Below are positions 7,463-58,505 of a DNA stretch of 64,000 nt, in pieces. A program made the position numbers and the translations under genes. A model generated the notes under the pieces. It was not told where the DNA came from, made no database searches, and worked only from the letters and a program-made list of their open reading frames with translations. Positions within the stretch are counted from its first letter, which is position 1. Each line of letters begins with the position of its first letter. The stretch is from positions 4,959,001 through 5,023,000 of the forward strand of contig NC_009901.1 of NCBI RefSeq assembly GCF_000018285.1, in the 5' to 3' direction. This DNA is from Shewanella pealeana ATCC 700345 (GTDB lineage Bacteria; Pseudomonadota; Gammaproteobacteria; Enterobacterales; Shewanellaceae).

Positions 7463-7546
7463 CTAAAACCCTTATTATTAATGTTATGTTTCTACGTCGA
7501 ATGAGTTCTTAACCGCGTAAAATAGCTATGCTTATCTTTTACGTCG

Positions 7547-8083: not shown

Positions 8084-8751
8084 TCTTCCTCTCTTTTTGC
8101 AGGCCAATGGGTTGGCTTATTTACTTTGCCGAAATGACGCAGTTTGGCGGCTTTCGCCATCTGTTTTGATAATTTAAGTAGCTGAATTAGCACTGGCAGC
8201 ACTACGCAGTAGATCAGTTCCGGCCAATTTTTAGGATTCCGTAAGGCTTTAGGAGTGATATTGGCGCCCCGTAAGCATTGAATGGCATAAATTTCTTTGG
8301 TTTCTTGCAGCATGTACGGCAATAAACCTATCGAGGAGGCAATCACAAACGCCCATTTAGCGGGTAAACCCCAGCTCAACACCTCGCCAATTCGCTCTGG
8401 CTTTTGCGTGGCAGACAACCACCAGCCAGGCAGCAATGCTAAGAACACTCGTAGCACCACGATTACGCCTTCGAGCATTTGCCCTTCGCCGTGAATAAGG
8501 TAATAAAGCGGCAAGGTTAATGCCAGTTGCGCTAAGCCTAACCGCAGTAAAGCGGAGATTTTATTTTTTAGGTATACGCCGTGAATAACCAGCAAGATAT
8601 CAATTATGATCAGCCCGCCAAGCGCGCTATTAGGCAAGAAAAAAGCGCTACTCGATAACACTAAGCTCAGCAGTAATGCGCAGGCACAATATTGGGTGGC
8701 AGTAATACGAAAGTATGCCATTTTGGTTGCAATGCGCCCTTTAGCCCACAT
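8080..8751 (-). CDS. ECF transporter transmembrane protein EcfT
   Basis: A 223-residue CbiQ/EcfT family protein. Four or five membrane segments lie in the first 120 residues, followed by the cytoplasmic coupling region. That region carries ETKEIYAIQCLRGANI near 158, where Gln-x-x-Arg-Gly corresponds to the ATPase-contacting motif of EcfT, and a second Ala-x-x-Arg-like site (AKAAKLRHFG) near 203. It overlaps the ATPase gene by 11 bases and the S component by 4, so the three are translationally coupled. It links the ATPases to the S component in the inner membrane. Confidence 0.82.
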   Translation of the reverse strand: MWAKGRIATKMAYFRITATQYCACALLLSLVLSSSAFFLPNSALGGLIIIDILLVIHGVYLKNKISALLRLGLAQLALTLPLYYLIHGEGQMLEGVIVVLRVFLALLPGWWLSATQKPERIGEVLSWGLPAKWAFVIASSIGLLPYMLQETKEIYAIQCLRGANITPKALRNPKNWPELIYCVVLPVLIQLLKLSKQMAKAAKLRHFGKVNKPTHWPAKREEE

Positions 8752-10105: not shown

Positions 10106-10122
10106 ACTCTTCCCCGATAGCC

Positions 10123-12075: not shown

Positions 12076-12513
12076 TGAATCTCATCATCCTAACGATATT
12101 TTTGCGGTATTTTCAAAAAGCGCTAGCTAACACTCAAGCAAATAAAATCATAAAACAAACTTAGATCGACTAATTTGAACAATGGGAAAAGAAACACAAC
12201 CCAGTGCGCGACAAAATGACCCACGAAACATCCTAAAAGGACAAAAGGGCCAATTAATCTCACAAATTTGCCCTAGTGCAATTGCGGGTAAAACTCAGTG
12301 GGGGATGAATAATTGGATTTGATTTGGTTATTTCAAAAGCATGTCGATTAAATAGTCAGTGAGAGTTCACACAGGCGGAGTAATCAACTTGACACTGTAT
12401 CCACAGACTATTACTTTGTGGTAAAGATTCTTATTACCAATGTGCGATGGGTGTATCCCAATTAGAGGCAGCTCCTCTAAGCAAGCCCTTATGATATTTG
12501 TTTGGAGTACTTA
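12076..12513. other. Divergent intergenic region between the TonB receptor operon and menF
   Basis: It holds the promoters of both directions. Towards menF there is TTGACA at 12389-12394 with a weak -10 (TACTTT, 17-base spacing) and a leader hairpin TTAGAGG/CCTCTAA around 12462-12480. The TonB-receptor leader has no cobalamin-box (GCCACTG) or clear palindromic Fur site that I can find. No small gene is evident. Confidence 0.4.
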
Positions 12514-15398: not shown

Positions 15399-15430
15399 TT
15401 GCAAACCCAAATGAGAATGATTATTGTTAA
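15399..15430 (+). promoter_or_regulatory. Fur-controlled promoter of RyhB-like copy 1
   Basis: TTGCAA (15399-15404) and TATTGT (15422-15427) are spaced 17 bases apart. A Fur-box-like palindrome, AAATGAGAATGATTATTG at about 15409, covers the spacer and -10, so iron-loaded Fur would block transcription. Confidence 0.8.
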
Positions 15431-15433
15431 CAC

Positions 15434-15556
15434 GCGTTCCAGAACTCGGATTAGCAAACAAAGTTCTCATCATCTTTGTTTGTTAAATGAGTTTTTACAG
15501 CACGACATTGCTCACACACTCTTAAGTGGCCGGGATATTTTCCCGGCTTTTTTTTG
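15434..15556 (+). ncRNA. ryhB: RyhB-like iron-responsive small RNA, copy 1
   Basis: About 120 nt from the predicted start to a strong terminator (GCCGGGA/TCCCGGC, then eight Ts at 15529-15555). The core AGCACGACATTGCTCACA at 15499-15516 is identical to the target-pairing core of enterobacterial RyhB (known sequence; Hfq-dependent repressor of iron-using proteins under iron starvation). A Fur box covers the promoter. Upstream is the shared start segment GCGTTCCAGAACTCG. A second copy lies 480 bases downstream. Predicted targets, by analogy, include iron-rich enzymes such as dehydrogenases, but no target was checked. Confidence 0.85.
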
Positions 15557-15879: not shown

Positions 15880-15910
15880 TTGCAAGACTAAATGATAATG
15901 ATTATTATTT
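15880..15910 (+). promoter_or_regulatory. Fur-controlled promoter of RyhB-like copy 2
   Basis: TTGCAA (15880-15885) and TATTAT (15903-15908) are 17 bases apart. AAATGATAATGATTATTATT at 15890-15909 is close to the Fur consensus GATAATGATAATCATTATC, a better match than at copy 1. Confidence 0.85.
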
Positions 15911-15914
15911 ACAT

Positions 15915-16029
15915 GCGTTCCAGAACTCGCTAACACTTAAAGGCATCTCATCTCCTGCAAGTTAGAGTTTTTTAAGCACGACATTGCTCACACACTCTTT
16001 GGCCGAGATATTATCTCGGCTATTTTTTT
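15915..16029 (+). ncRNA. ryhB: RyhB-like iron-responsive small RNA, copy 2
   Basis: About 115 nt. The core AGCACGACATTGCTCACA (15975-15992) is exactly that of copy 1 and of E. coli RyhB, and the start segment GCGTTCCAGAACTCG is also shared. The middle differs. The terminator stem is GCCGAGATA/TATCTCGGC (16002-16020) plus a T-run, against GCCGGGA/TCCCGGC in copy 1: both arms changed together, so the structure is conserved while the sequence drifts. Fur box and promoter are intact. Both copies therefore appear functional. Confidence 0.85.
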
Positions 16030-16104: not shown

Positions 16105-18243
16105 CTAGTCTCGCGACATGTCTGAATGTTTTCCGCAAAATTGCAAACCTTCATAGGGGGTATTACTCTGGTCTTCAATGGCCTTGTGGTATAAGCCTAT
16201 GGTGAATAGACTGCCCTTGCCTACGGTAGAGTTGACTTCTATGGTGCCACCAATACGCTTAATGATACCGTAACTCAGCGATAGCCCCAGTCCAGTGCCG
16301 TCTTTACGGGTAGTGAAAAACGGATCGAAAATGCGATTGAGCTCCTCTTCTGGGATCCCTTTACCTTCGTCTTCAACTTCAATCTTGACGCCAACAGGCT
16401 CTCCACGTTGTACCCAATCATAGGTTCTTATCCAGATCTGCCCCTTACCATTCATTGCGTGAGCCGCATTAACGACGAGGTTAATCAGTACCTGTAGTAG
16501 CTGCGGGCGATTAACCTGAATCGGGTAGCTAGCGTTAAGCTCTTGATTGAGTACCACCTGCTGTTTCTGGATAGAGTGACGCACCAATACCAACATCTCT
16601 TCGATAATCGGCGTGATCTGGTGCATCTCAAGCGGTGCATTAAACTCACCAGGGCGGCTGTATTGCAACAGACTGCGAATAATGGTGCTAATACGGCCTA
16701 CTTGCTGAATAACCAGCTCGATCTCTTCTTCGACATCGGCCGCTCTATCTCCAAGCTCATACTTAAGCAGCTCCATATTACCCAGAATCACCGCCGTAGG
16801 GTTATTGATCTCATGGGCAATACCCGCAGTTAGCTCACCTAGGGCAGTCAACTTCTCGTTGATCACCAGCTGCTGTCGGGTTTCATTGAGTAGAGCGACG
16901 TTAGCCTGCAGCTCTTCTGTCTTCTCTTGTAGGCTGCGAGTTCGTTCTTCGACTTTGACTTCAAGCTGCTCAGCGGCAGCTTGGATCTGGCTGTTACGCA
17001 TCTGCAGTAGATCCAACATGCGGTCAAACTGCTCGGCCAGATTAGATAGCTCATTATCGCTGTCTAAACCCAGTGAACCTATACGTAGATTACGTCCAGA
17101 CTGCACCGCTTTCACCACGTGGTGGATGCGTTCAATAGGTTGTAACAAGCTATAGGCACCGCGGTATACCAACCAGCCAGAGACCAGCAACACCAGCATC
17201 AAGATGGTGCCCAGTTCGATAATATTGAGCAGGTAGTTATGGATAAATGGAGACTCAGAAAATCCGGTATAGATCATACCGATCCGCTTACCGTTAATAT
17301 CTTCCAGCGGTGAGTATGCCGAGATAAACCAGTCATTAAAGACGAAAGCTCTATCGACCCATAGTAGCCCTTGAATCAATACCTTTTCGCGTACCTCAGA
17401 TGAGACTAAGCTGCCTAAGGCACGCCCTTGCTGATCACCTCCTTGAGGAAAGAAGTGCAACGGCACATTGGTACTGATACGGATATTATCGAGGAAAATA
17501 GTCACGGTACCGATTGAGCGCTCCGGCAGCGTGCCCTTGTCGTACACCAGATCACGAATATGGTCGACAATGCGGGTATCGCGATTAAGCATGATGCCGC
17601 CATCTAAGTACCAGGCGACATTACCATTCATGTCGGCAACAGGCAGCAAGCTGCGACTTAACAGGCCACGCTTCTCTTCATGTTTACTGGGCTCTTGAGC
17701 TCGCAAGGTCTTCATTACAGACACTTTGGCCCTATCGGCGAGTACAGGGTCGATGCGAGCCAATCGACTCGGTTCAAGCACCATCAAGCCAGAGAAAGGG
17801 GCTAAACCTTCGATATGCGGCAACATCTGCCGCAGATCAGGATCCGCCGCGGCCTCCGCAACACTGACTAGGCGTAAGAAATCTAAATTAAGATCTTTCT
17901 TCGCTTGTTCTAGTACCAGCTGCAAGTTGTCGCGAGGGAGCTGGGCGCCGTTGCCAATTTTCCTGAAATCATTCTGGAACTGCCAAGACTCCATCACCAA
18001 CTCTAGCTGGTTCTCTTGGTTTGTTTGCACGGTCACTAGGGTGCTGTTTGCAACGGTCAAATCGGCTTTGACCTTCATAAACAGCTGTTTACCTGTGTAG
18101 CTAATATTCCAATAGATGGTAATAAAAACCAAACTCACAAGAGTGAGCAAGATGGGCAACAGGGTTAAAATCAGGATGCGATAGCGCACCTTAGCCTGCA
18201 TTTGTTGCCAACTAACACCAAACATATTGGAAAAAAAAGACAC
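16105..18243 (-). CDS. Membrane sensor histidine kinase (NtrB/DctB-type)
   Basis: A 712-residue kinase. TM1 is at about 22-44, a large periplasmic Cache-like sensor at 46-336, TM2 at 341-361, HAMP at 362-415 and a coiled coil at 415-465. The phospho-acceptor H477 is in GELTAGIAHEINNP, followed by an ATPase domain with N box NLVVNAAHAM, G1 EDEGKGIPEE, F box FDPFFTTRKDG and G2 GTGLGLSLSYGI. The start is a GTG at 18243 behind AGGGGAG. The gene is 31 bases after its sigma-54-type regulator, so they form one two-component operon. The signal is unknown; divergent tupABC suggests tungstate or a linked anaerobic cue. Confidence 0.9.
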   Translation of the reverse strand: MSFFSNMFGVSWQQMQAKVRYRILILTLLPILLTLVSLVFITIYWNISYTGKQLFMKVKADLTVANSTLVTVQTNQENQLELVMESWQFQNDFRKIGNGAQLPRDNLQLVLEQAKKDLNLDFLRLVSVAEAAADPDLRQMLPHIEGLAPFSGLMVLEPSRLARIDPVLADRAKVSVMKTLRAQEPSKHEEKRGLLSRSLLPVADMNGNVAWYLDGGIMLNRDTRIVDHIRDLVYDKGTLPERSIGTVTIFLDNIRISTNVPLHFFPQGGDQQGRALGSLVSSEVREKVLIQGLLWVDRAFVFNDWFISAYSPLEDINGKRIGMIYTGFSESPFIHNYLLNIIELGTILMLVLLVSGWLVYRGAYSLLQPIERIHHVVKAVQSGRNLRIGSLGLDSDNELSNLAEQFDRMLDLLQMRNSQIQAAAEQLEVKVEERTRSLQEKTEELQANVALLNETRQQLVINEKLTALGELTAGIAHEINNPTAVILGNMELLKYELGDRAADVEEEIELVIQQVGRISTIIRSLLQYSRPGEFNAPLEMHQITPIIEEMLVLVRHSIQKQQVVLNQELNASYPIQVNRPQLLQVLINLVVNAAHAMNGKGQIWIRTYDWVQRGEPVGVKIEVEDEGKGIPEEELNRIFDPFFTTRKDGTGLGLSLSYGIIKRIGGTIEVNSTVGKGSLFTIGLYHKAIEDQSNTPYEGLQFCGKHSDMSRD

Positions 18244-18274
18244 CTACACTCCCCTAGAGCAATCTCAATATTGT

Positions 18275-19648
18275 TTAAGATTCTTCTTTGTCGGCTTCAC
18301 CGCCGAACCATTCTTTATATTTTCGATCTAGAGTCTTTCGTGATACCCCCAGATCCCTTGCTGCTGCCGACTTATTGCCACCATGTAGGTCAACAACGCG
18401 AGTCACATGATCACGCTCAACATCTTTAAGCGCCCACTGTAGTGGATAACCTGACTCGCCTGCAGCCTCAGTCTTTGGCTGCACTTTCCAGTATTCAGCA
18501 GGCGGCTTGCCCAATAGGATACAGCGTTCAATCATATTTCGCAGCTCACGAATATTACCTGGCCATTCGTGTTGTTGCAGCTTCAATAGATCTTCATGAC
18601 TCCACACCACCTCTTTCACGCCTAGCTCTGCCGCTAATTGGCAAGTGAAGTGATGAGTCAGCTCAACGATATCTTCTGGGCGATCACGCAACGGCGGGAT
18701 CACTATATCGAGCACATTGAGGCGATAATATAGATCGCGTCTAAAGTTACCCGCTTCAACCTCTTCAGATAGCTTACGGTTAGTCGCTGCCAACACGCGC
18801 ACATCGATATTGATCTCTTTCTCGCTACCGACGGGACGAATGGTACGCTGCTCAAGCACGCGCAATAGCGCCGTTTGCATTTTCAGCGGCATCTCGCCAA
18901 TTTCATCGAGGAAGATTGTACCACCAGAGGCAAAACTAAATAGACCTTCTCGGTTACCCTTCGCGCCTGTAAATGCACCTGCAGAATGACCGAAAAGCTC
19001 GCTCTCTAAAAGTTCTGGGGCGATGGCGCCACAGTTAACTGGCACAAATGGTCCTTGGCGACCACTAAGAATATGCAACTGACGAGCAACCAACTCTTTA
19101 CCCGTACCAGACTCACCCTCAATCAAGACTACGGCATTGGTTGGCGCCACACGTTCAATAACATGCTTCACCTCAGTCATCGCATCGCTTTGGCCAATAA
19201 TGGTAGAAGATTGATTGAAAGACACTTCACGACGTAGCATCAAGTTTTCACGCTTAAGCAAGCGTCGCTCGATACAGCGGTCAACCGCCTTCATCATCTG
19301 TTCAAGGTGGAAAGGCTTCATAATGAAATCAGATGCACCAGCGCGTAGTGCCTTTATTGCCACATCCATATCGGCGTAGCCGGTCATAAAGATGATGTCA
19401 GAGCGCCTTTCTTGATCATTTAACGCCTCATGCCATTCAATTCCCGAGCGCCCAGGTAGGCGAATATCGACAATTAATAGATCAAAATGGCAGCGTGAAC
19501 GCAATTGCTCAGCATCTTCGACACTCGAAGCGGTTTCAACCAAGGCAAATTTCTTCGCTAGCGCTTTTTTCAAAAAACTGCGCATGCCCGGTTCATCATC
19601 GACAATCAATACAGATACAGCTGAAGGAAGTGGCTTCATATTATTCAT
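18275..19648 (-). CDS. Sigma-54-dependent response regulator (NtrC family)
   Basis: A 457-residue activator. The receiver has acidic pocket DDEP near 17 and phospho-acceptor D61 (LLIVDIRLPG). The AAA+ domain has Walker A GESGTGKE near 178, the sigma-54-contacting loop GAFTGA at 224-229, and GGTIFLDEIGEMP. A Fis-type HTH closes the protein (GGNKSAAARDLGVSRKTLDRKY). ATG 19648 is taken over an upstream GTG at 19660. GAFTGA means it should activate a sigma-54 promoter, and a near-perfect one lies just across the divergent gap in front of tupA, making the tup operon its probable target. Confidence 0.93.
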   Translation of the reverse strand: MNNMKPLPSAVSVLIVDDEPGMRSFLKKALAKKFALVETASSVEDAEQLRSRCHFDLLIVDIRLPGRSGIEWHEALNDQERRSDIIFMTGYADMDVAIKALRAGASDFIMKPFHLEQMMKAVDRCIERRLLKRENLMLRREVSFNQSSTIIGQSDAMTEVKHVIERVAPTNAVVLIEGESGTGKELVARQLHILSGRQGPFVPVNCGAIAPELLESELFGHSAGAFTGAKGNREGLFSFASGGTIFLDEIGEMPLKMQTALLRVLEQRTIRPVGSEKEINIDVRVLAATNRKLSEEVEAGNFRRDLYYRLNVLDIVIPPLRDRPEDIVELTHHFTCQLAAELGVKEVVWSHEDLLKLQQHEWPGNIRELRNMIERCILLGKPPAEYWKVQPKTEAAGESGYPLQWALKDVERDHVTRVVDLHGGNKSAAARDLGVSRKTLDRKYKEWFGGEADKEES

Positions 19649-19652
19649 TCTC

Positions 19653-19770
19653 TGTCCCACCTTGTCTTATAGAGGGACATTTTGACTCATTATGGAGCAA
19701 GTCTATCATCTAACCAGTCGAAATAGGTCACTATGAACCATGTAATCGCGACCTTGGGACATAATGTCTG
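19653..19770. promoter_or_regulatory. Candidate upstream activator sites for the NtrC-type regulator
   Basis: Three related motifs lie 75-195 bases upstream of the sigma-54 promoter: TGTCCC (19653-19658), facing GGGACA (19674-19679), and the palindrome GGGACATAATGTCTG (19756-19770). Spacing of this kind is normal for enhancers of NtrC-type activators. The proximal pair also overlaps the regulator's own translation start, allowing autoregulation. Assignment is inferred. Confidence 0.45.
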
Positions 19771-19845
19771 TGCTTTTTCTGCGAGTGATGGGATCGAGAT
19801 CACACAAGAGTTACAAATGTGAACTTAAATAATCCAATACAAGCA

Positions 19846-19860
19846 TGGCATTAAACTTGC
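19846..19860 (+). promoter_or_regulatory. Sigma-54 promoter of the tup operon
   Basis: TGGCA (-24) and TTGC (-12) with exactly six bases between (TGGCATTAAACTTGC) match the sigma-54 consensus TGGCAC-N5-TTGC spacing. It lies 77 bases before the tupA ATG, and a T-run follows the -12 element as usual. Confidence 0.8.
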
Positions 19861-19936
19861 TTTTAGAGAGGCTGATTCGATTTTTTAACAGGCCTCAGGT
19901 ATCGAGTGGCCTATTTTATTTTTCCAAGGAGTTAAA

Positions 19937-20749
19937 ATGCTAAACCTTAAACGCGTTGTTGGCCTTGCGGTTACCGCTGCACTATTTGTTGGTATGCCAG
20001 CCCAAGCTAACGAAGTTATTAAGCTTGCAACAACGACAAGTACTGAAAACTCAGGCCTACTAAAAAACCTACTACCTAAGTTTGAGGCTGAATCAGGCTA
20101 CAAGGTACAAGTTATTGCTACTGGTACAGGTAAGGCGCTAAAGCTTGCTCGCCAAGGCGACGTTGATGTGGTCATGACTCACGCTCCAGGCGCTGAAGCA
20201 AAATTCGTTGAAGAAGGCTACGGTCGTCTTCCACGTGGCATCATGGAAAACGACTTCGTTGTTCTAGGTCCAAAGAACGATCCAGCTAAAATCCGTTCAA
20301 GTAAAACGGCTGAAGAAGCATTTGCTAAAATCGCTAAATCAGGCGTGCCTTTCATCTCTCGTGGTGACAACTCTGGCACCAACATGAAAGAACTGCTTGT
20401 ATGGAAGAATGCTAATATTACTCCAGACTTCAAAGGTTACACTGCGGTTGGTCAAGGAATGGGCAAAACCCTATTAATGGCTAGCGAATTAGAAGCTTAT
20501 ACACTATCTGACCGTGGTACTTTTGTTGCTTATTCAGGTAAAATAGACCTAGCAGTAGATTTCGATGGCGGTCCAGCACTAGCTAACCCATACCAAATCA
20601 TACTAATCAGTGAAAGCAAGTACCCAACGCTAAATCATAAGGGTGCTCAAGCATTGAGCGACTGGCTGATCGGCGCTGAAGCGCAAGGCATGATCAACAA
20701 TTATAAAGTTCAGGGTGAACAATTGTTCAAGGCAACATATAGCGAATGA
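19937..20749 (+). CDS. tupA: Tungstate ABC transporter substrate-binding protein TupA
   Basis: A 270-residue periplasmic protein with a Sec signal peptide (cleavage about 24, after AQA). The ligand motif TTTSTENSGLL at about 32-42 is the TupA signature (TTTS...), distinct from ModA. Further TupA hallmarks are GTGKALKLARQGDVDVVMTHAP and SRGDNSGTNMKE, which hold the oxyanion-binding Ser/Thr/Arg residues. The Tup family binds tungstate with very high affinity and selectivity over molybdate (known from Eubacterium and Campylobacter). It overlaps tupB by four bases and follows a sigma-54 promoter. Confidence 0.92.
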   Translation: MLNLKRVVGLAVTAALFVGMPAQANEVIKLATTTSTENSGLLKNLLPKFEAESGYKVQVIATGTGKALKLARQGDVDVVMTHAPGAEAKFVEEGYGRLPRGIMENDFVVLGPKNDPAKIRSSKTAEEAFAKIAKSGVPFISRGDNSGTNMKELLVWKNANITPDFKGYTAVGQGMGKTLLMASELEAYTLSDRGTFVAYSGKIDLAVDFDGGPALANPYQIILISESKYPTLNHKGAQALSDWLIGAEAQGMINNYKVQGEQLFKATYSE

Positions 20750-21453
20750 ATGAAGGCTGGTTAGCCCTTATACAGCAGGCATTAAGCCTGCTGTTTTCAT
20801 TGGACCCCGAAGTGTGGTCCATTATCTCTGTCTCTTTTGCAGTATCATTTGCGGCACTAGCTATCACGCTGTTGCCTTCAATGGTACTGGGCTTTCTCTT
20901 GGCCTTTACACGCTTTCCGGGCCGATGGTTAGTCACCAATCTTATCCAAACCCTACAGTCCATTCCTACGGTTGTAATCGGTCTATTGGTCTATCTACTG
21001 CTGACCAGAATGGGGCCGTTAGGGGATTTAAAGTGGCTGTTTACCCAAAAAGGTATGATTCTCGGGCAGATGATGATCTGTGCCCCGGTACTTGTCGCCA
21101 TGAGCCAAGCCGCCTTTACCAGTGTCGACCGCAGGGCATGGGAAACCTCCCGTACCTTAGGTGCACCAGCACTGAGTGCGATATGGGCGGTCTGCAGAGA
21201 GCTTAAAGTTCCACTATTATTAGCTATTATCGCCGCATTTAGCCGCATTTTAACCGAGATAGGTTGTTCGATGATGGTGGGCGGCAACATAGCAGGAGTG
21301 ACACGCAACATTCCTACCGCTATCGCACTCGAAACCAGTAAGGGTGACTTTGCCCAAGCGATTGCACTCGGGCTTGTATTACTCGTTTTAGCACTGATTT
21401 TAAATTTTGCTCTGGGTACATTAAGAGGCAAAGCCGAGCCGAGGAGTCATTAA
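20746..21453 (+). CDS. tupB: Tungstate ABC transporter permease TupB
   Basis: A 235-residue inner-membrane permease with five to six hydrophobic segments. The EAA-type cytoplasmic loop, RRAWETSRTLGAPALSAIWAV near 125-145, contacts TupC. ATPase coupling and the segment RILTEIGCSMMVGGNIAGVTRN are typical of Tup/Mod permeases. Its ATG overlaps the tupA stop (ATGA), showing translational coupling. Confidence 0.9.
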   Translation: MNEGWLALIQQALSLLFSLDPEVWSIISVSFAVSFAALAITLLPSMVLGFLLAFTRFPGRWLVTNLIQTLQSIPTVVIGLLVYLLLTRMGPLGDLKWLFTQKGMILGQMMICAPVLVAMSQAAFTSVDRRAWETSRTLGAPALSAIWAVCRELKVPLLLAIIAAFSRILTEIGCSMMVGGNIAGVTRNIPTAIALETSKGDFAQAIALGLVLLVLALILNFALGTLRGKAEPRSH

Positions 21454-21458
21454 CTCAA

Positions 21459-22205
21459 ATGACAGTGACTAATACTAAAGGCAATGCCAAAATCATTGCT
21501 CGAAACCTTGAGATGCGCTTTGAAAACAAGCATCTCTTTAGTACTCGTGAATTAGTTTTTGAGCAAAACCGAGTGATCCATCTGCAGGGTGACAACGGCT
21601 GTGGCAAGACCACCTTGATGAAGTTACTCGCAGGCTTTATCCAGCCAACAGCAGGCTCCATTCAGGCTCAAGGTTTCTCTATTGCCCCTTGGTGGCGCAG
21701 CAAATCTATTACGGGTAAAGCTATCTATCTACATCAACACCCTTATCTTTTCGAAGGCAGTGTGATGTATAACCTCACTTATCCATTAAGGTTTTTGGAC
21801 CGAGATCAACAGCTTCTCAAGGCCCGTACCGAGCAGGCTATTGATATGGCACAGTTGCGCCACTTGCTCACTCAGGCCGCCTCGAGTTTATCCGGTGGTG
21901 AGAAACAACGTTTAGCCATAGCCAGAGCCTGGATTATTCAGCCTAAACTATTGATGCTAGACGAGCCGACTTCCAATATGGATAAGCACTCGCAACAACT
22001 GGTGTTACAGATGATTAGCGATCTAAAGCTGCAAGGCACTGGCATGCTAATTAGTAGCCACCAGACTTGTATGCTGACCAAAGTATGCGATCATGCTTGG
22101 CTAGTTTGCGATAACACGATTACCAGCAGTAATATTAGTGCCAATCAGGATATGACTGATTCTCCCGCTGATATTTCAATGACATTGAATGTGTCAGTTG
22201 GGTAA
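21459..22205 (+). CDS. tupC: Tungstate ABC transporter ATP-binding protein TupC
   Basis: A 248-residue ABC ATPase with Walker A GDNGCGKTT near 46, Q-loop LHQHPYLF near 89, signature LSGGEKQRLA near 145 and Walker B LLMLDEPTSNMD near 165. There is no C-terminal molybdate-binding (MOP) domain, unlike ModC later in the window, so it would not be regulated by bound oxyanion in that way. It starts five bases after tupB and completes the TupABC importer. Confidence 0.9.
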   Translation: MTVTNTKGNAKIIARNLEMRFENKHLFSTRELVFEQNRVIHLQGDNGCGKTTLMKLLAGFIQPTAGSIQAQGFSIAPWWRSKSITGKAIYLHQHPYLFEGSVMYNLTYPLRFLDRDQQLLKARTEQAIDMAQLRHLLTQAASSLSGGEKQRLAIARAWIIQPKLLMLDEPTSNMDKHSQQLVLQMISDLKLQGTGMLISSHQTCMLTKVCDHAWLVCDNTITSSNISANQDMTDSPADISMTLNVSVG

Positions 22206-22257
22206 ACTCATTGGCAATTTTTAGATAAAACTGCGAACAAACAATAGGATAACAGTG

Positions 22258-22860
22258 ATGGCAGCACAAGTTGATGCAGTAATCCTTGCAGGCGGTATGG
22301 CCAGACGCATGGGTGGAAACGATAAAGGTTTAGTCGAACTGCTAAACCGCCCCATGATAGAACATGCAATCGAGCGGATAAAACCTCAAGTTAAGGAGAT
22401 CCTGATCAACGCAAATCGAAACCAAAACCGTTATTCTGAGTTTGGTTTTAAGGTGTTCAGCGACCAAGATTCAGGCTATTTAGGCCCATTGGCTGGCATG
22501 ATCACCGCGATGAGCAATACCGATGCGGAATATTTATTAGTGGTTCCTTGCGATTGCCCACTGTTACCGACAGATTTAGTCGCTAGAATGCTAGCGAAAT
22601 TAACGGCTGAAGACGCCGAACTTGCAGTAGCAAGCGACGGTAAACGAGAGCAACCTGTAGTCATGTTGCTAAAGCCGAGTTTACGCGAGTCTATGAAGGC
22701 ATTTTTAGATGCCGGTGAACGCAAAATCGATTTTTGGTATGCCAAGCATCACTATGTCGTCGCTGAGTTTTCCGATCAGCCAAATGCGTTTGTAAACGTG
22801 AACACACCAGAACAAAAGCAGCAGCTAGGCGAAGCCATAGCTAATGAAGAAAATCACTAG
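22258..22860 (+). CDS. mobA: Molybdenum cofactor guanylyltransferase MobA
   Basis: A 200-residue nucleotidyltransferase that joins GMP to Mo/W-molybdopterin to form MGD, the form used by formate dehydrogenases. The N-terminal GTP-binding motif is [21 protein letters not shown] (about 8-28), followed by the metal site [14 protein letters not shown] near 97. ATG 22258 is chosen over GTG 22255 for spacing to AGGA. It is eight bases before mobB/moeA in the tup operon. Confidence 0.93.
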
Positions 22861-22868
22861 AGGTGTAA

Positions 22869-24668
22869 ATGAGCATACCTTTTACTAATCCGTTACCTAT
22901 TCCTGTACTCGGATTCTGTGCCTACAGTGGCACAGGCAAGACCACATTATTGAAGCAATTAATCCCAGAGCTTAATCGCCGCGGTGTGCGACTCGCAGTC
23001 ATTAAGCATGCTCATCATAACTTCGATGTCGATATTCCCGGTAAAGATAGCTACGAGATGCGTAAAGCAGGCGCAAAGCAGATGCTGGTTGCTTCTCATG
23101 TACGCTGGGCGTTAATGACCGAAGACGCCAAAGATGGCGACCCTGAACTACCACATTTGCTAAAACAGATAGAAGCCGACAAGGTCGATATCGTCCTCGT
23201 TGAAGGTTTCAAAAAGCTCGAACTCCCCAAGATAGAACTGCACCGCGCCGCTCACGGCAAGCCTTTCATCCACACTCATGATGACAATATCCAAGCTATC
23301 GCCTGCTGTGATGACACCGAGCTACCAAGCGAACTACGCCGTTTAGATATCAACAATGTAGAGCAAATCGCCGACTACGTTGGTGAATACATTGCCGCGT
23401 GGAAGCCTTGCCCAATCGATCTACCTATGGCACCCACTTGTGGCTGCGAACTGGATAACAGCAGTACGCTGTCAGTGCGCCAAGGTATCGACAAGATCCT
23501 ATCTTACGTCAACCCAATCAGCGCGACAGAGTCTGTCGAGCTCGATGAGCTTGAGAACCGCGTATTAGCTAGCGATGCCATCTCTCCGGTTGACGTGCCA
23601 CAACACACCAATTCAGCGATGGACGGTTACGCGTTTAAATTAAATGACCAGCCAGACGCCTCATACAAGATGGTTGGCGAAGTGATGGCCGGCCATGCTT
23701 ATGCTGGCACTATCCAAGCGGGCGAAGCGGTACGCATTATGACTGGCGCACCAGTGCCAGCAGGTGCAGATACTATTCAGCTACGTGAGCTTGCCAACGA
23801 GCAGGACGGTGAAGTTCGTTTCGAAGGTGAGATGAGCCTAGGGCAACACATTCGCCTAGCTGGTGAAGACATTGCCCAAGGCGCAACAGCCTTAGCCGCA
23901 CATTCACGCCTACACGCCGCCGAACAAGGCCTGTTAGCCTCATTAGGTTTTGGTGAGTTACCGGTATTTAAGCGTCCAAAAGTAGCCGTATTTTCAACAG
24001 GCGACGAAGTTTGTCAGCCAGGCGAGCCGTTAAAAGCCAACTGCATTTTCGACTCTAACCGCTACACCATTAAATCGATGGCGAAGAAGTTAGGCTGTGA
24101 AGTGATCGATTTAGGCATCATTCAAGATTCAGAAGCCGCACTAGCGCAAGCGCTAAAAGATGGCGCAGCACAGGCCGATATCGTCATCAGTTCAGGCGGT
24201 GTATCTGTTGGTGACGCCGACTATATCAAGACGGTACTAGAGCAAGTGGGCCAGATAAACTTCTGGCGTATCAACATGCGCCCGGGTCGCCCGTTAGCTT
24301 TCGGTCAAATCGATGATGCATTATTCTTCGGTTTACCGGGTAACCCAGTAGCGGTTATGGTGTCGTTCTTACAGTTTGTGCAGCCAGCGATTCGTAAACT
24401 TGCAGGCGAACAGAACTGGGCACCGACTATGGTGCCAGCAATTACCGACAAGCCACTGCGCAGCCGTACAGGCCGCACAGAATTTACCCGTGGCATGTAT
24501 CACTTAGGTGCTGACGGCAAGCTACATGTAACCACAACCGGTGCTCAGGGCTCAGGGATGCTTAGCTCTATGGTAAAAGGAAACTGTCTCATCGTGATTG
24601 GCGAGAAAGATGATCAGTTAAATCCAGGTGACACAGTTTACATTCAACCTTTTGCCGACCTCCTTTAG
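22869..24668 (+). CDS. MobB-MoeA fusion: MGD adaptor and molybdopterin molybdenumtransferase
   Basis: A 599-residue fusion. The MobB part (about 1-175) has P-loop GFCAYSGTGKTTLLKQLIPEL near 16-36, binds GTP and aids MobA. The MoeA part (about 195-599) begins VELDELENRVLASDAISPVDVP, continues HTNSAMDGYAF (substrate loop), RIMTGAPVPAGADTI, and the MPT-binding core SSGGVSVGDADYIK and FFGLPGNPVAVMVSF. MoeA inserts the oxyanion into adenylated molybdopterin. A link rich in Cys (PTCGCELDN) lies between the parts. Placement directly after tupABC and mobA suggests that it inserts tungsten as well as, or instead of, molybdenum. Confidence 0.93.
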   Translation: MSIPFTNPLPIPVLGFCAYSGTGKTTLLKQLIPELNRRGVRLAVIKHAHHNFDVDIPGKDSYEMRKAGAKQMLVASHVRWALMTEDAKDGDPELPHLLKQIEADKVDIVLVEGFKKLELPKIELHRAAHGKPFIHTHDDNIQAIACCDDTELPSELRRLDINNVEQIADYVGEYIAAWKPCPIDLPMAPTCGCELDNSSTLSVRQGIDKILSYVNPISATESVELDELENRVLASDAISPVDVPQHTNSAMDGYAFKLNDQPDASYKMVGEVMAGHAYAGTIQAGEAVRIMTGAPVPAGADTIQLRELANEQDGEVRFEGEMSLGQHIRLAGEDIAQGATALAAHSRLHAAEQGLLASLGFGELPVFKRPKVAVFSTGDEVCQPGEPLKANCIFDSNRYTIKSMAKKLGCEVIDLGIIQDSEAALAQALKDGAAQADIVISSGGVSVGDADYIKTVLEQVGQINFWRINMRPGRPLAFGQIDDALFFGLPGNPVAVMVSFLQFVQPAIRKLAGEQNWAPTMVPAITDKPLRSRTGRTEFTRGMYHLGADGKLHVTTTGAQGSGMLSSMVKGNCLIVIGEKDDQLNPGDTVYIQPFADLL

Positions 24669-24688
24669 AGGCCGTGTAGGTAGCTAGC

Positions 24689-25675
24689 ATGAGTTTAATC
24701 GTTGACACTTTTGGTCGCACGGTAGAATACCTGCGACTATCCGTTACTGATCGCTGCGATTTTCGCTGCGTGTACTGCATGAGTGAAGATCCCTGCTTTT
24801 TAGGCCGGGAACATGTACTCAGCCTAGAAGAATTAGCCTGGGTCGCCCAAGCTTTTACCGAACTAGGCGTTAAGAAGATCCGCTTAACAGGAGGTGAGCC
24901 GTTAGTGCGCACCGACTGCGATCAGCTAGTTAAGCTATTAGGTAAGTTACCGGGCCTTGAAGAGTTGTCGATGACGACCAACGGTTCTCGCTTAACCCGT
25001 TTCGCGCAAGAGATGCATGATTCAGGCTTGAACCGACTCAACATCAGCTTAGATACCTTAAAGCCAGATCTGTTTACCAGTCTTACTCGTAACGGCAAGG
25101 TCGACCGCGTTATTGCCGGTATCGACGCCGCCATTGCAGCAGGTTTTAAAAAGATTAAGATCAACGCGGTGATTTTACGTGGCCAAAACGATGATGAAGT
25201 CTTAGATTTAATCGAGTTTTGCCGCGAACGCGACTTAGATATCGCCTTTATCGAAGAGATGCCACTAGGCGTGATTGATGAGCGCAAGCGCAGCCGTCAC
25301 TGCAGCAGTAAAGAAATTCAAGACATCATCACTGAGCGTTACCCGCTAATCCAGTCAAACCGCCGTACAGGTGGCCCAGCGCGTTACTTCACCATGCCCG
25401 GCAGCGACATACATGTGGGCTTTATCTCGCCCCACAGCAATAACTTCTGCCACGAATGCAATCGCGTCCGCGTCACGGTAGAGGGCAAACTGTTACTCTG
25501 CCTAGGCAACGAAAACTCAGTGGATCTCAAAGCTATTGTCCGCGAATTCCCCGGTGATATCGAAAGGCTAAAAACCGCGATTCTAGACGGCATCCAGCAC
25601 AAACCCAAAGAGCACCATTTCGACCCAAATGGTGAAACGCAGATCTTGCGCTTTATGAATGCAACGGGTGGCTAA
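24689..25675 (+). CDS. moaA: GTP 3',8-cyclase MoaA, tup-operon copy
   Basis: A 328-residue radical SAM enzyme, the first step of pterin synthesis. The SAM cluster motif is CDFRCVYC (about 24-31), with the SAM-binding LTGGEP near 73, and the C-terminal substrate cluster is CHECNR plus a Cys at VEGKLLLCLG (about 258-275). The protein ends in Gly-Gly, which is needed for activation of the MoaA active site. It is a second MoaA: the other (44438-45418) is clearly diverged in sequence. Being in the tup operon, it could boost pterin supply when tungstate import is induced. A terminator follows. Confidence 0.93.
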   Translation: MSLIVDTFGRTVEYLRLSVTDRCDFRCVYCMSEDPCFLGREHVLSLEELAWVAQAFTELGVKKIRLTGGEPLVRTDCDQLVKLLGKLPGLEELSMTTNGSRLTRFAQEMHDSGLNRLNISLDTLKPDLFTSLTRNGKVDRVIAGIDAAIAAGFKKIKINAVILRGQNDDEVLDLIEFCRERDLDIAFIEEMPLGVIDERKRSRHCSSKEIQDIITERYPLIQSNRRTGGPARYFTMPGSDIHVGFISPHSNNFCHECNRVRVTVEGKLLLCLGNENSVDLKAIVREFPGDIERLKTAILDGIQHKPKEHHFDPNGETQILRFMNATGG

Positions 25676-25773
25676 CTGTTGCTTGAACAGTTTTGTCGCT
25701 GATGGTGGTCTGGTGTTTTCTGTCACCACAGTGGTTAACTGTTAGCTTGGAGTTAGCTGTACGCTAGATACAT

Positions 25774-25799
25774 AAAACCCGACGTAAATGTCGGGTTTT
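25774..25799. terminator. Bidirectional terminator after moaA (tup operon)
   Basis: AAAACCCGAC and GTCGGGTTTT pair around GTAAAT. It separates the tup operon from the convergent DUF2806-like gene. Confidence 0.88.
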
Positions 25800-53968: not shown

Positions 53969-54952
53969 TTATTCTTTGTACTTAAGGGTACCGTTTTCTT
54001 TGATTTCATCGAACCAAAGGTTATGGTGTTGGCTTGCCCATGTTTCGTCACAGTAGCCAGAAACCATACACTCCATACCACCTTCAGACATAACCGTTGC
54101 CATGAAGATATGCACGATTGAGAAAGCAGTAATGATGATAGCAGCTACAGAGTGAAGCACTAATGCGATTAGGCTTAATGTGCGGCTAGGCTCGAACAAG
54201 TTCGGGAATAGCAACAACATACCTGATGCAGAAATCACTAGACCGAACACAGCGAATGCCCAGAACCATAACTTCTCACCCGCGTTAGCAAAACCAGCGT
54301 CAGGGTGCTTACCTTTGAATGGACCGAAGTTGATGTAACCACCAACAACCATCATCCACTTAAGGTCATACATTTTAGGCATCTGGTTCTTAGCCCATAA
54401 CGTTACCATAAGCGCCCAACCTAACATGAACGGGATCGCCATGATGTCGTGGATCTGCTTAGCAGCGTTAACTAGGCCAGCCCATAGGCCTTCACCGATG
54501 TACGGCTGAACAAAGTAACGTCCAGCAATTAGCATTAAGCCTGTTAGGATCAATAGCAGACAAGGGATCGCACCTAGCCAGTGAATTGATACGTCAAACT
54601 TAGACCAACGGTATACCAGCTTGCCTGAATAACCACCGTGAAGCTTAGAAATGCCATTCACTTTGATAAACAGAACAAAAATAATGATCATGCCGAAAAG
54701 GGCTGCCATTAACGCTGGAGCAAGAATATCACTACGCAATTCAAGCACACGTAGATCATAGGTGTTGATTGCTTGACCGTGGAATTCACTCGTTGAAGTT
54801 GTACGACCTTCTTCGCCCGCTTTTAGCTGAGCCCAGATTTGGCCGTTGTTAACTTCAATAGTGTCGCCCACTTTGTCAGTAGCGTTAGCAAAAACAGACA
54901 CACTGAAAAACAGTGCAATTGCCACGCCTATGTGTTTTAACCATTTGTTCAT
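53969..54952 (-). CDS. Formate dehydrogenase cytochrome b subunit, cassette 1
   Basis: A 327-residue subunit that anchors FdhAB in the membrane and passes electrons to quinone. It has a signal peptide (about 1-24), an extra periplasmic stretch of about 50 residues (GQIWAQLKAGEEGRTTSTSEFHG), a TM near 78-98 and then four TMs of the cytochrome b556 type with haem His residues in VSIHWLGAIPCLL, QIHDIMAIPF and IALVLHSVAAIIITAFSIVHIFMA. It is nearly identical in large parts to the cassette 2 subunit. Confidence 0.9.
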   Translation of the reverse strand: MNKWLKHIGVAIALFFSVSVFANATDKVGDTIEVNNGQIWAQLKAGEEGRTTSTSEFHGQAINTYDLRVLELRSDILAPALMAALFGMIIIFVLFIKVNGISKLHGGYSGKLVYRWSKFDVSIHWLGAIPCLLLILTGLMLIAGRYFVQPYIGEGLWAGLVNAAKQIHDIMAIPFMLGWALMVTLWAKNQMPKMYDLKWMMVVGGYINFGPFKGKHPDAGFANAGEKLWFWAFAVFGLVISASGMLLLFPNLFEPSRTLSLIALVLHSVAAIIITAFSIVHIFMATVMSEGGMECMVSGYCDETWASQHHNLWFDEIKENGTLKYKE

Positions 54953-55032
54953 AATACGTCCTCTATTACCACTAGGTGGCTCAAACTAATGAGCCACTCA
55001 GGGTACGCTGGAAGTTAGTCAACCTAAGTTGA

Positions 55033-55602
55033 TTAACCCCAAGCTGCGTTTTTAGAACCACGGTATGCAACACGCTCACGGAAGATTGCAGAAACAATCT
55101 CAGCATCACCCGCTAGTAGCGACTTAGTTGCACACAGCTCAGCACACATAGGTAGCTTGCCTTCAGCGATACGGTTTGCACCGTACTTCTGACGCTCTGC
55201 ATCAGAGAAGTTCTCTTCTGGGCCACCCGCACAGAAAGTACACTTGTCCATCTTACCGCGCGCACCGAATGCACCCTGTTTAGGGAACTGTGGCGCACCA
55301 AATGGGCAAGCGTATAGGCAGTAACCACAACCGATACAAGTATCTTTGTCGTGAAGTACGATGCCATCTTCTGTCTTGTAGAAACAGTTTGCTGGGCAAA
55401 CAGCCATACAAGGTGCGTCGTCACAATGCATACAAGCAACAGAGATAGAGGCTTCGCCCTTCTCACCGTCATTGATAGTTACTACGCGACGACGTTGAAT
55501 TCCCCACTCAAGAGCAGAGTCGTTTTCGTTCTTACATGCTGTGACACAACCGTTACACTCGATGCAGCGCTTGGTATCACATAAAAATTTCATTGTAGCC
55601 AT
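55033..55602 (-). CDS. Formate dehydrogenase iron-sulfur subunit, cassette 1
   Basis: A 189-residue ferredoxin-type subunit that relays electrons from FdhA to the cytochrome b. It has four [4Fe-4S] sites: CDTKRCIECNGCVTACK, CMHCDDAPCMAVCP, CIGCGYCLYACPFGAPQFP and CTFC...CAELCATKS. No signal peptide or C-terminal TM, so it is exported with FdhA by the Tat hitchhiker route. Almost identical to the cassette 2 copy. Confidence 0.93.
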   Translation of the reverse strand: MATMKFLCDTKRCIECNGCVTACKNENDSALEWGIQRRRVVTINDGEKGEASISVACMHCDDAPCMAVCPANCFYKTEDGIVLHDKDTCIGCGYCLYACPFGAPQFPKQGAFGARGKMDKCTFCAGGPEENFSDAERQKYGANRIAEGKLPMCAELCATKSLLAGDAEIVSAIFRERVAYRGSKNAAWG

Positions 55603-55631
55603 TCTGGCAATTCTCCTAGCGAATACTGCAA

Positions 55632-58505
55632 TTATGCTTTAGCAATCTGACAAAGTGATGCTTTAGTTTCCTGCATCTGAGTCACTGGGTCATAACCATA
55701 AGTCATTACCGTGTTTGCTGACTCACCAACAATGTAAGGTTTAGTGCTAATGCCACCCGATTCTGGGTATTGCAGATCTTCACCGTGCATCACACCCGCA
55801 AAGTGATAAGGCATCCAAGTCACACCTGGCTTAACGCGTGGAGTTACCATCGCCTTAATTAGGATACGACCACCTTCAGCGCCTTCAACCCAAACGTCAT
55901 CACCGTCACGTAGACCGCGATCAGCAGCGTCTGCAGGGTTGATTTCGATGAACATTTCTTGCTGTAGCTCTGCAAGCCATGGACAAGAACGAGATTCTTC
56001 ACCACCACCTTCGTACTCAACCAAACGGCCTGAAGTTACGATTAGTGGATACTTCTTATCTAGATCATCAGAGATCACTTTGTCTTGTAACGTCTTGAAT
56101 AACGTTGGTAGACGGTGAACTTGCATGTCGTTGTGAGTTGGGTATTTCTCAATTAGATCACGACGTGAAGTGTAGATTGGCTCACGGTGAACAGGCACTT
56201 CGTCTGGGAAAGTCCAAACGCGACAACGTGCTTTAGCGTTACCGTATGGCACCATGTTGTGTGCTAGCGCAACACGTACGATACCGCCGCCTAAGTCAGT
56301 AGACCAAGTACGGTTTTCAGCTAGTGCTTTCTCTTCAGCAGTTAGCTCGTCCCACCAGCCAAGTTGCTTCAGCATCTTGTCATCGAATTGTGGGTAGCCG
56401 TCTTGGATATCAGCACCAACAGAAGCTGAATCTTCAGCTAGAATGCTAACGCCTTCATGCTCAACACCGAAACGTGCACGGAAGTTACCACCACCTTGGT
56501 TAACGTTCATACCTGTGCGGTATAGAATCTGTGAACCAGGGTGCTTCTGCTCTGGAGTACCCCAACATGGCCAAGGTAGACCGTAAGTTTCGCCCTTGTT
56601 CACGCCACCTGGTGCTTCTAGTGTTTCAGAAGAGAAATCACCCCAGTTCATGGTGTGAGCACGGATACGCTCTGGGCTCCAACCTGTGTAACCGATTGAA
56701 CGCATACCTTTAGCGTATTCACGCATGATGTCATCAGGATCAGGCATGTTGCCGTTAACCTTGATGTGCTTAGTCCATGTGTCAGCAATGCCTACATGCT
56801 TCGCGATGCGGTACATGATCTCTAGGTCATTCTTAGACTCGAATAATGGCTCAACAACCTGTTGACGCCACTGTGCACTACGGCCAGAGTTGTTTACTGA
56901 ACCTTCACACTCAAACTGAGTTGCTGCAGGTAGAATGTAAACGCCATCTTGACGACGGTGCATAACACCCGCCATTGTTGGGTATGGGTCAACAACGACT
57001 ACTGTTTCTAACTTGTCCAATGCGTCACGCACTTCCATCTGACGAGTTTCAGTGTTGATTGACTGACCCCAGAAGAATGCTAGACGTAGGTTATCTTTTT
57101 GAGCAAGTTTATCTTTAGCTTCTAACACACCATCTTGCCAGCGTGAACATGGCATACCTGGAGTAGTCATTGGGCTACGACCTAAGTAAGACTTTTGGTC
57201 GAAACGTGCTTTTACAGAATCGAATGGTAGATCCCATACGCGAGACCAGTGGTGCCATGCGCCTTCACCAACGCCGTAGTAGCCTGGTAAGTTGTCGAAT
57301 AGCAGACCCATGTCCGTTGCGCCCTGAACGTTGTCGTGGCCACGGAAAATGTTAGTACCACCACCAGACACACCCATGTTACCTAGCACTAGCTGCAGGA
57401 TAGAGTACATACGCGTGTTAGCGTTACCAACGTGATGCTGAGTACCACCCATACACCAAATTACGGTACCAGGACGGTTAGTCGCCATCTGCTTAGCAGC
57501 AGCATAAACTGCATCGCGAGAAACACCGGTAACGTTTTCAACTTCTTCAGGAGTCCAACGCGCAGCTTCTTCACGGATCTTGTCCATGCCGTAAGCACGT
57601 GTGCGGATGAACTCTTTATCTTCCCAGCCATTTTCAAAAATGTGCCACATTAGACCGTAAACCAAAGGAATATCGGTACCTGGACGTAATGGAAGGTGGA
57701 TATCGGCGTGAGCCATAGTGCGAGAGAAACGTGGATCGGCAACAGTAATTGTCGCGCCGCGCTCTTTAGCGATCATGATGTGCTGCATCGCAACTGGATG
57801 CGCCTCTGCTGGGTTTGCCCCAATCAGGAAGATATTTTTTGCGTTACGAATATCGTTGAAAGAGTTGGTTTGTGCACCGTAACCCCAAGTGTTCGCAACA
57901 CCAGCAACTGTAGTTGAGTGACAAATACGCGCTGAATGGTCAACGTTGTTTGTGCCCCACATTGCCGCAAACTTACGGTACATGTATGCACCTTCGTTTG
58001 AGAATTTCGCACTACCCATGAAGTAAACTGAGTCAGGACCAGATGTTTGCTTGATCTCAAGCATCTTATCGCCGATTTCAGATACAGCTTGTTCCCACGA
58101 AAGCTTCTTCCACTTACCGCCTTCAAGCTTCATTGGGTACTTAACACGCTTATTTGAATGCGTGTGGTAACGTAAGCTCGCGCCTTTAGCACAGTGGCCG
58201 CCAGAGTTGAATGGGTGGTCAAATGCAGGCTCTTGACCTGTCCAAACACCATTTTGAACTTCAGCGTATAGACCACAACCTACCGCACAAGCACTACATA
58301 CAGTACGCTTGATTTCAGTTGGTGCATCATAAGCAACAGTTTGCACTTTAGCTTCAGCTTTACGCATCATGCCTGTGCCTAATAAAGAAGCTGCTGCGAT
58401 ACCACCAGATGTGATACCTGCTTGCTTCATAAACTGACGACGGCTGATACCTAGAGTCTTTTTCTCTACAGTAGGTGCCGCGTTGGATTGGCGAGTTAAC
58501 TTCAT
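55632..58505 (-). CDS. Formate dehydrogenase catalytic subunit (Mo/W-bis-MGD, Cys type), cassette 1
   Basis: A 957-residue periplasmic enzyme that oxidises formate to CO2. It has a twin-arginine signal (SRRQFMKQAG near 20), a proximal [4Fe-4S] motif CSACAVGCGLY near 70, and the active-site metal ligand Cys in SARICHSTTVAGVANTWGYG near 190, where selenocysteine sits in E. coli FdnG/FdhF. Pterin-binding regions include GANPAEAHPVAMQH, RGHDNVQGATDMG and WMPYHFAGVMHGE. Upstream is the small Tat protein; fdhB and fdhC follow closely. It consumes the bis-MGD cofactor made by genes earlier in the window. Confidence 0.95.
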   Translation of the reverse strand: MKLTRQSNAAPTVEKKTLGISRRQFMKQAGITSGGIAAASLLGTGMMRKAEAKVQTVAYDAPTEIKRTVCSACAVGCGLYAEVQNGVWTGQEPAFDHPFNSGGHCAKGASLRYHTHSNKRVKYPMKLEGGKWKKLSWEQAVSEIGDKMLEIKQTSGPDSVYFMGSAKFSNEGAYMYRKFAAMWGTNNVDHSARICHSTTVAGVANTWGYGAQTNSFNDIRNAKNIFLIGANPAEAHPVAMQHIMIAKERGATITVADPRFSRTMAHADIHLPLRPGTDIPLVYGLMWHIFENGWEDKEFIRTRAYGMDKIREEAARWTPEEVENVTGVSRDAVYAAAKQMATNRPGTVIWCMGGTQHHVGNANTRMYSILQLVLGNMGVSGGGTNIFRGHDNVQGATDMGLLFDNLPGYYGVGEGAWHHWSRVWDLPFDSVKARFDQKSYLGRSPMTTPGMPCSRWQDGVLEAKDKLAQKDNLRLAFFWGQSINTETRQMEVRDALDKLETVVVVDPYPTMAGVMHRRQDGVYILPAATQFECEGSVNNSGRSAQWRQQVVEPLFESKNDLEIMYRIAKHVGIADTWTKHIKVNGNMPDPDDIMREYAKGMRSIGYTGWSPERIRAHTMNWGDFSSETLEAPGGVNKGETYGLPWPCWGTPEQKHPGSQILYRTGMNVNQGGGNFRARFGVEHEGVSILAEDSASVGADIQDGYPQFDDKMLKQLGWWDELTAEEKALAENRTWSTDLGGGIVRVALAHNMVPYGNAKARCRVWTFPDEVPVHREPIYTSRRDLIEKYPTHNDMQVHRLPTLFKTLQDKVISDDLDKKYPLIVTSGRLVEYEGGGEESRSCPWLAELQQEMFIEINPADAADRGLRDGDDVWVEGAEGGRILIKAMVTPRVKPGVTWMPYHFAGVMHGEDLQYPESGGISTKPYIVGESANTVMTYGYDPVTQMQETKASLCQIAKA

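Follow-up and report, generated by a model that had tools for sequence, protein, structure and literature searches.

A divergent two-component pair as the predicted sigma-54-dependent activator of tungstate uptake and formate dehydrogenase genes in Shewanella and its relatives

What controls tungstate uptake in Shewanella, and does that control extend to other genes? The question is raised by a locus of Shewanella pealeana ATCC 700345, whose genome is one contig of 5.17 Mb. Within the stretch of DNA analysed (64,000 nucleotides of contig NC_009901.1, positions 4,959,001 to 5,023,000 of the forward strand, termed the window), the operon tupABC-mobA-mobB/moeA-moaA lies divergent from the genes of a sensor histidine kinase and an NtrC-type response regulator. 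An earlier, sequence-only reading had proposed that a sigma-54 two-component system controls this operon. From comparison across genomes, it is highly likely that the kinase-regulator pair activates both the tup/cofactor operon and a formate dehydrogenase (fdh) operon through upstream dyads and sigma-54, the identity of the signal being set aside.

The kinase (16105..18243, minus strand), counterpart of SO_4717 of S. oneidensis MR-1, is composed of sCache_3_3 (4.1e-23), HAMP, HisKA, and HATPase domains. Its motif GIAHEINNP begins at residue 474, which places the histidine at residue 477. Hydrophobic stretches flank the Cache domain on both sides and suggest that it lies outside the membrane, and sequence comparison reveals invariant Arg residues within it. 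The top kinase match at the Shewanella locus L080 spans residues 346-702 only. The regulator (18275..19660, minus strand), counterpart of SO_4718, contains receiver, AAA+, and HTH_8 domains, and its true start is probably an ATG, at 19648 or at 19639, and not the GTG at 19660. In the receiver, IVDIRLPG begins at residue 63 and gives Asp 65; in the AAA+ domain, GESGTGKE is found at 182 and an intact GAFTGA at residues 228-233. The protein therefore carries what defines the NtrC type, namely a receiver with a phosphorylatable Asp, an AAA+ domain with Walker A and GAFTGA, and a Fis-type HTH, and a -24/-12 sigma-54 promoter is present at its target as judged by sequence and conservation only. Among the 25 best matches shown, the regulator falls below every NCBIfam equivalog cut-off (AtoC 391/714, NtrC 384/559, ZraR 318/760), and its assignment as a ZraSR, AtoSC, or NtrBC equivalog was rejected on this ground.

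The divergent operon encodes, all on the plus strand, a Tup-like binding protein (tupA, 19937..20749), a Tup-like permease (tupB, 20746..21453), an ABC ATPase (tupC, 21459..22205), MobA (22255..22860; TIGR02665 above cut-off), a MobB/MoeA fusion (22869..24668; NF011060 above cut-off), and MoaA (24689..25675; TIGR02666 above cut-off). The intergenic gaps from tupA to moaA are -4, 5, 49, 8, and 20 bp. A terminator-like stem is found within tupB (20772-20794); such stems occur at chance level here (8 versus 6.5). To call the operon complete, as had been done, is too strong: moaA is its only moa gene, and no search was made for moaBCDE, mogA, or moeB elsewhere. The sole NCBIfam match of TupA is the TupA model. 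Its closest solved relatives are 3muq (9.6e-88, uncharacterized) and then 3lr1 (9.8e-68, tungstate-binding), and a tungstate-binding protein among the nearest solved relatives is what is expected of a TupABC system.

Between the divergent genes is a predicted sigma-54 promoter, TGGCATTAAACTTGCT (-24/-12; 19846..19861, plus strand), from which a transcript start near 19872 is expected. Upstream of it, TGTCCC is found at 19653-19658 and GGGACA at 19674-19679 and 19756-19761. These words are parts of three conserved dyads: site A, GGACATTTTGACTCA (19675..19689); site B, GGTCACTATGAACC (19726..19739), perhaps a weaker copy of the A/C dyad; and site C, GGGACATAATGTCT (19756..19769), its dyad given as GGGACAWWWTGTC. 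The regulator with its GAFTGA, the Cache-type kinase, the divergent operon, the promoter, and the GGGACA/TGTCCC words all lie where the sequence-only reading had placed them. Within the window, a lone promoter match is not informative, with 44 sites at up to two mismatches versus 43.1 in shuffles, and the dyad pattern with one mismatch is likewise not enriched (20 versus 17.5).

Conservation supplies the information that a single site lacks. TGGCA-N6-TTGC[TA] is found before tupA in 66/69 Shewanella regions (shuffle mean 0.2, largest 2), drawn from 107 tup-bearing genomes; a 70th, L105, was dropped for lack of an N-terminal match. Around the promoter much of the sequence varies between regions, and the aligned start follows at distances of 68 to 131. 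The promoter is exact in 17 of the 18 regulator-bearing regions of other genera and in all 79 usable named loci of Moritella and Vibrionaceae. The named loci are the best 80 of 573 sensor-domain relatives, of which the 80th (L342) ends before tupA, and they overlap in part with the 18 regions (at least seven loci). The dyad GACANNNTGTC (GACA-N3-TGTC) stands upstream of the promoter in every one of the 69 Shewanella regions (shuffle mean 0.275, largest 4) and in 16/18 regions of other genera; the form GACANNNTGT[CA] is present at 68/79 named loci. In the 12 regions for which the spacing was read, the site C dyad is 88-89 bp from the sigma-54 site. Although a lone site is at chance level, the conservation of promoter and dyad across regions means that the tup promoter is not a chance match, and the proposal of sigma-54 two-component control of tup is strongly supported by these comparisons.

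The regulator and tupA also travel together. In a sample of 117 genomes of the genus (regulator E <= 1e-120, tupA E <= 1e-20), the regulator is found in 107 and tupA in the same 107; the other 10 are without both. In each of these 107 genomes the two genes are divergent neighbours, their matches 260-623 bp apart. In an order-wide sample of 345 genomes (regulator E <= 1e-115, tupA E <= 1e-35), the regulator is found in 65 and tupA in 67, and 65/65 regulators are divergent neighbours of tupA. Only genomes G196 and G229 have tupA and lack the regulator, and neither sample holds a genome with the regulator and without tupA. Two-component genes standing without tup in most relatives, the pattern that the sequence-only reading had named as contrary to it, is thus not what the genomes contain, and the divergent arrangement that it had pointed to for comparison holds in every regulator-bearing genome of the Shewanella sample.

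Gene order is similarly stable. At 18 of 20 loci from other genera the order is kinase, regulator, tupA, tupB, tupC, mobA, and mobB/moeA, the exceptions being G196 and G229. A moaA match is present at 16/20 Shewanella loci and, among the loci of other genera, only in G145. By the named loci (best 80 of 573), the arrangement occurs in Moritella, Photobacterium, Grimontia, Enterovibrio, Aliivibrio, and Vibrio. In the 10 tup-less Shewanella genomes mobB/moeA has 3 matches, the whole fusion only in G106, where mobA and the fusion are retained (L151) without tup or regulator.

Natural losses bear on how the parts depend on each other. In G196, which has no regulator, neither dyad nor sigma-54 site is found in the 450 bp before tupA or in the 1.5 kb before the fdh accessory gene. 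G229 yields no match to the regulator and only a short kinase-like one; its tup promoter reads TTGCC for TTGCT and has no dyad, and the fdh accessory protein was not found in this genome. In G145 the kinase and regulator are kept (regulator L225 3955-5307), with GAFTGA changed to DAFAGG. Its tup promoter reads CTGCG for TTGCT, dyad-like sites persist there, and neither dyad nor promoter is found between its fdh accessory gene and kinase. The G145 regulator may be an enhancer-binding protein that left sigma-54. The strongest pointer to mechanism, from one genome, is that the promoter has decayed where the activator no longer has its sigma-54 loop. The genes, their sites, the conservation, and these coupled losses are read from the DNA itself.

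The target list of the earlier proposal stood for the tup operon and missed the fdh operon, whose promoter is outside the window. The window contains fdhC, fdhB, and fdhA (53969..58505, minus strand), one of three formate dehydrogenase sets; a second, similar fdhABC set (60053-63999, minus strand) is cut by the window end, and a third is beyond it. FdhA is a full-length relative of the formate dehydrogenase 9vap_A of the PDB (residues 1-957, 1589 bits). It is named by this relative and falls below the NCBIfam cut-offs TIGR01591 (490/666) and TIGR01553 (356/814 bits). An active-site Cys is read from the translation at ARICHS, which we take to be the motif of that residue. In this genome and in G012, one perfect palindrome each is located between fdhD and the divergent operon leading to formate dehydrogenase. 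The predicted fdh promoter, TGGCACACTAATTGCT (G000:C1:5033265-5033280, minus strand), precedes the first of the three sets and is 65 bp from the dyad. Upstream of the set in the window (58505-60200 scanned, minus strand), there is a TGG-N8-TTGC site at 58632 and no dyad.

This dyad and promoter recur at fdh loci. Of 106 Shewanella genomes with FdhA, loci from 31 were compared, and strict TGGCA-N6-TTGC[TA] is found within 120 bp after the dyad in 28, at 64-65 bp. With TGG-N8-TTGC within 130 bp, dyad and sigma-54 site precede the fdh operon at 30/31 Shewanella loci and, at 82-94 bp, at 17/19 loci of other genera; single-base shuffles give 0/1000. The lone Shewanella miss, L268, has its promoter at the edge of its stretch, with the dyad position beyond the end. 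The two exceptions in other genera are G196, without the regulator, and G145, whose regulator lost GAFTGA.

A FdhA homologue (E <= 1e-200) is present in 106/117 genomes of the genus sample, which are all tup-bearing genomes except G101 (52% complete), and in 0/10 tup-less ones. TIGR01553 was tried as a marker of the client enzyme and rejected, since it matches only 46/117. S. oneidensis MR-1 FdhAB is entered as Cys-W in a 2026 review, the locus not being named there (PMC13397495). Because FdhA co-occurs with tup and MR-1 FdhAB is listed in this way, the second target is very probably a tungsten enzyme. As a neighbouring feature, a protein with HTH_17 and PBP_like domains is encoded after fdhD in L255 (8371-9276, plus strand), and a frame resembling it is found in G145 between an fdhD-like frame and the kinase; it is a possible one-component metal or cofactor sensor.

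Taken in order, the mechanism would run as follows. The kinase would read a signal outside the inner membrane and phosphorylate the regulator. The phosphorylated regulator would bind dyads resembling GGACANNNTGTCC ahead of two sigma-54 promoters, where its GAFTGA would open the sigma-54 polymerase complex. Promoter one would provide TupABC, MobA, MobB/MoeA, and MoaA, and promoter two the subunits of a periplasmic formate dehydrogenase of the Cys type along with maturation proteins. Tungstate import, the making and loading of the cofactor, and the tungsten enzyme would then increase together. Carbon or anaerobiosis would provide a further input in Shewanella, through a CRP-like box that stands downstream of the dyads and ahead of the tup promoter. 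In this scheme we infer the binding of regulator to dyad, phosphotransfer, activation, and the location of domains and enzymes. The signal is a guess: either scarcity or presence of tungstate in the periplasm, and formate as second choice. We lean to tungstate because the pair adjoins tup in every genome that has both.

It is possible, if rather unlikely, that the pair is in essence a sensor of formate (or another carboxylate) for formate dehydrogenase, with tungstate uptake serving only as cofactor supply. The co-occurrence of FdhA is as tight as that of tupA, the fdh operon has the same dyad and promoter, and in 18/19 genomes with a match outside Shewanella, tupA shares its contig with the fdh accessory gene, 2.5-35 kb off. 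The sensor moreover belongs to the Cache domains, which commonly have small organic acids as ligands, and it contains invariant Arg residues. The pair itself, however, adjoins tup in 107/107 Shewanella genomes, whereas fdh is 36-56 kb away in the S. pealeana genome, and G145 retains dyad-like sites at tup and none at fdh.

A wider scope for the pair was also considered. The TonB receptor gene at 10123-12075 heads a run (6704-12075, minus strand) that also encodes a double ABC ATPase, a CbiQ-like protein, a membrane protein, and a distant relative of methanogenesis marker 11. About 150 bp before this TonB receptor/ECF-like operon is a dyad (12210..12221), which makes the operon a candidate third target. 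The receptor is present in 9/20 Shewanella stretches. With G012 and the window added, 11/11 carry G[AT]CANNNTGTC at -149 to -181, and seven of the 11 dyads are exact GACANNNTGTC, counts that have no shuffle control. The sigma-54 pattern used here occurs before the TonB receptor at 0/11 loci. The TonB operon as third target is thus possible, a lead rather than a result. That one two-component system runs the whole envelope tungsten economy, from TonB/ECF-like capture through import and cofactor loading to a tungsten formate dehydrogenase, with the Cache kinase sensing external tungstate, is an unlikely extension of activation of the tup and fdh operons.

The CRP-like box bears on a further alternative, in which the sigma-54 promoter is real but minor and CRP, or another regulator such as the HTH_17/PBP_like protein by fdhD, sets tup expression. 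The box, TGGGATCGAGATCACA (19789..19804), is located between site C and the promoter and was called with what we take to be the CRP consensus. It is found in 51/69 Shewanella regions with up to one mismatch (17/1380 in single-base shuffles) and in 67/69 with up to two (178/1380), and is 56-58 bp upstream of the promoter in 65/69. SO4718 belongs to an expression module with a CRP-like motif, according to PMC2667191, and the HTH_17/PBP_like gene adjoins fdhD. Even so, this alternative is improbable: the sigma-54 site and dyads are common to Moritella and Vibrionaceae (the CRP box having been searched in Shewanella only), and promoter decay follows loss of the regulator. The remaining possibility, that unrelated regulator genes happen to stand by a chance promoter match, for which the chance level of lone sites in the window could be cited, has next to no probability, refuted by conservation in 66/69 and 79/79 regions, the fixed neighbourhood, and the second target.

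Several observations weigh against activation of the two operons by the pair as proposed. The transporter is one: TupA, TupB, and TupC score 195/400, 174/320, and 100/400 bits, below the NCBIfam cut-offs NF041772/3/4, and the naming is therefore kept at Tup-like. With these cut-offs unreached, the substrate may also be molybdate. The sites are another. Three of the 69 Shewanella tup promoters escape the search pattern, and 11/79 named loci lack the dyad pattern (ten Grimontia or Enterovibrio and one Aliivibrio assembly). The fdh pattern was relaxed after other genera had been seen, the strict form being found outside Shewanella only at L279 (1/19). Genome-wide, the dyad word GGACAWWWTGWC is not selective, with 11 matches versus 11 in the backward control in the S. 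pealeana genome and 14 versus 8 in G012. The 11 include four at tup and fdh; the sites scanned elsewhere (7 here and 9 in G012) have no sigma-54-like site within 250 bp, and the reverse-strand twins L241, L250, and L252 were not scanned separately. A first dyad guess, RGGWCANNNTGWCCY, was rejected at one mismatch for want of enrichment (88 per strand versus 86 backward). The dyad at the TonB operon, standing without a sigma-54 site, may be a site for another protein or work independently of sigma-54, and G145 retains the pair despite loss of GAFTGA. In expression, SO_4509-4511 and SO_4513-4515 shift oppositely with electrode potential (PMC5852097), so the fdh sets have further inputs. Finally, the open-licence papers searched yielded no experiment on the kinase-regulator pair.

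In published expression data, SO4718 is among nine regulators induced 2.8-8 fold in anaerobic iron reduction, from unpublished data cited in PMC2667191. In Vibrio cholerae, VC1522 is a response regulator (PMC4441509) divergent from VC1523 (PMC6855506), a putative tupA; VC1524 and VC1525 are labelled tungstate transport (PMC12505965). VC1511-1518 (fdh) and VC1523-1524 are up together in a ribD mutant, and VC1511-1518 and VC1523, VC1524 excepted, in a ribN mutant (PMC5816637), which speaks for the proposal. In a phase variant the fdh genes are up 4-5 fold, with VC1523 and VC1524 absent from the main text as available (PMC5109742). In a fur mutant of S. oneidensis, tupA, tupB, and fdh genes drop together and are restored without ryhB, and RyhB overexpression lowers SO_4506-4510 and not tupA or tupB (PMC5826389). 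Because overexpression spares tupA and tupB, this response is co-movement and not proof. MR-1 tupB is up 1.55 in co-culture, the passages at hand naming no MR-1 fdh gene (PMC7784907). MR-1 ryhB itself sits between SO_4716 and SO_4717 (PMC5826389). Downstream of the kinase in the window are two weak PrrF/RyhB matches (15400-15556 and 15881-16029, plus strand; 35 and 31 bits, gathering score 90), possibly tandem RyhB copies.

The system resembles NtrBC, ZraSR, and AtoSC in its receiver-AAA+-HTH_8 architecture with GAFTGA, its histidine kinase, its upstream dyads, and its -24/-12 promoter; it differs in its targets, which here are tungstate import, cofactor genes, and formate dehydrogenase. TunR proteins of sulfate reducers are one-component regulators controlling tungstate uptake genes. 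Control of such genes is common to both systems, whereas a membrane kinase and a sigma-54 activator are involved here. In Escherichia coli, FhlA works without a kinase and detects cytoplasmic formate; the two systems share sigma-54 control of formate dehydrogenases, and sensing is assigned to a kinase in the present one. In a 2025 survey, one COG has 176 members predicted to be under sigma-54 control, and formate dehydrogenases make up 32% of these; that control is the likeness, and no word starting with "tungst" appears in the survey's main text as available (PMC12316311). The word tungstate has 0 occurrences in the text available of the Desulfovibrio vulgaris sigma-54 regulome (PMC4641369), and PMC2725144 is the Geobacter RpoN regulon paper.

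The nearest precedent is annotation of the same MR-1 genes with the same proposed role in tungstate transport. SO4718 was labelled in 2009 "two component Sigma54 specific transcriptional regulator for tungstate (molybdate) transport" (PMC2667191), and SO_4717 in 2016 "Tungstate-responsive histidine kinase" (PMC5148205). The earlier remark that such control was not known to be described is thus only partly right, since annotation already states it. In the passages that carry them, these are labels only, giving no binding sites, fdh target, or spread beyond Shewanella. No statement uniting tup and fdh under the pair was found in the open-licence papers searched; what is new is the dyad and sigma-54 site at the fdh operon, the tungstate labels of the pair being already known.

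If the proposal is true, the much-studied Shewanella, Vibrionaceae, and Moritella would have a dedicated tungsten regulon under a sigma-54 two-component system. The import of a metal would be tied to its client enzyme, and sensing of tungsten from outside would become testable in MR-1. The regulon would also offer handles for expressing the reported tungsten FdhAB, an enzyme of interest for CO2 reduction.

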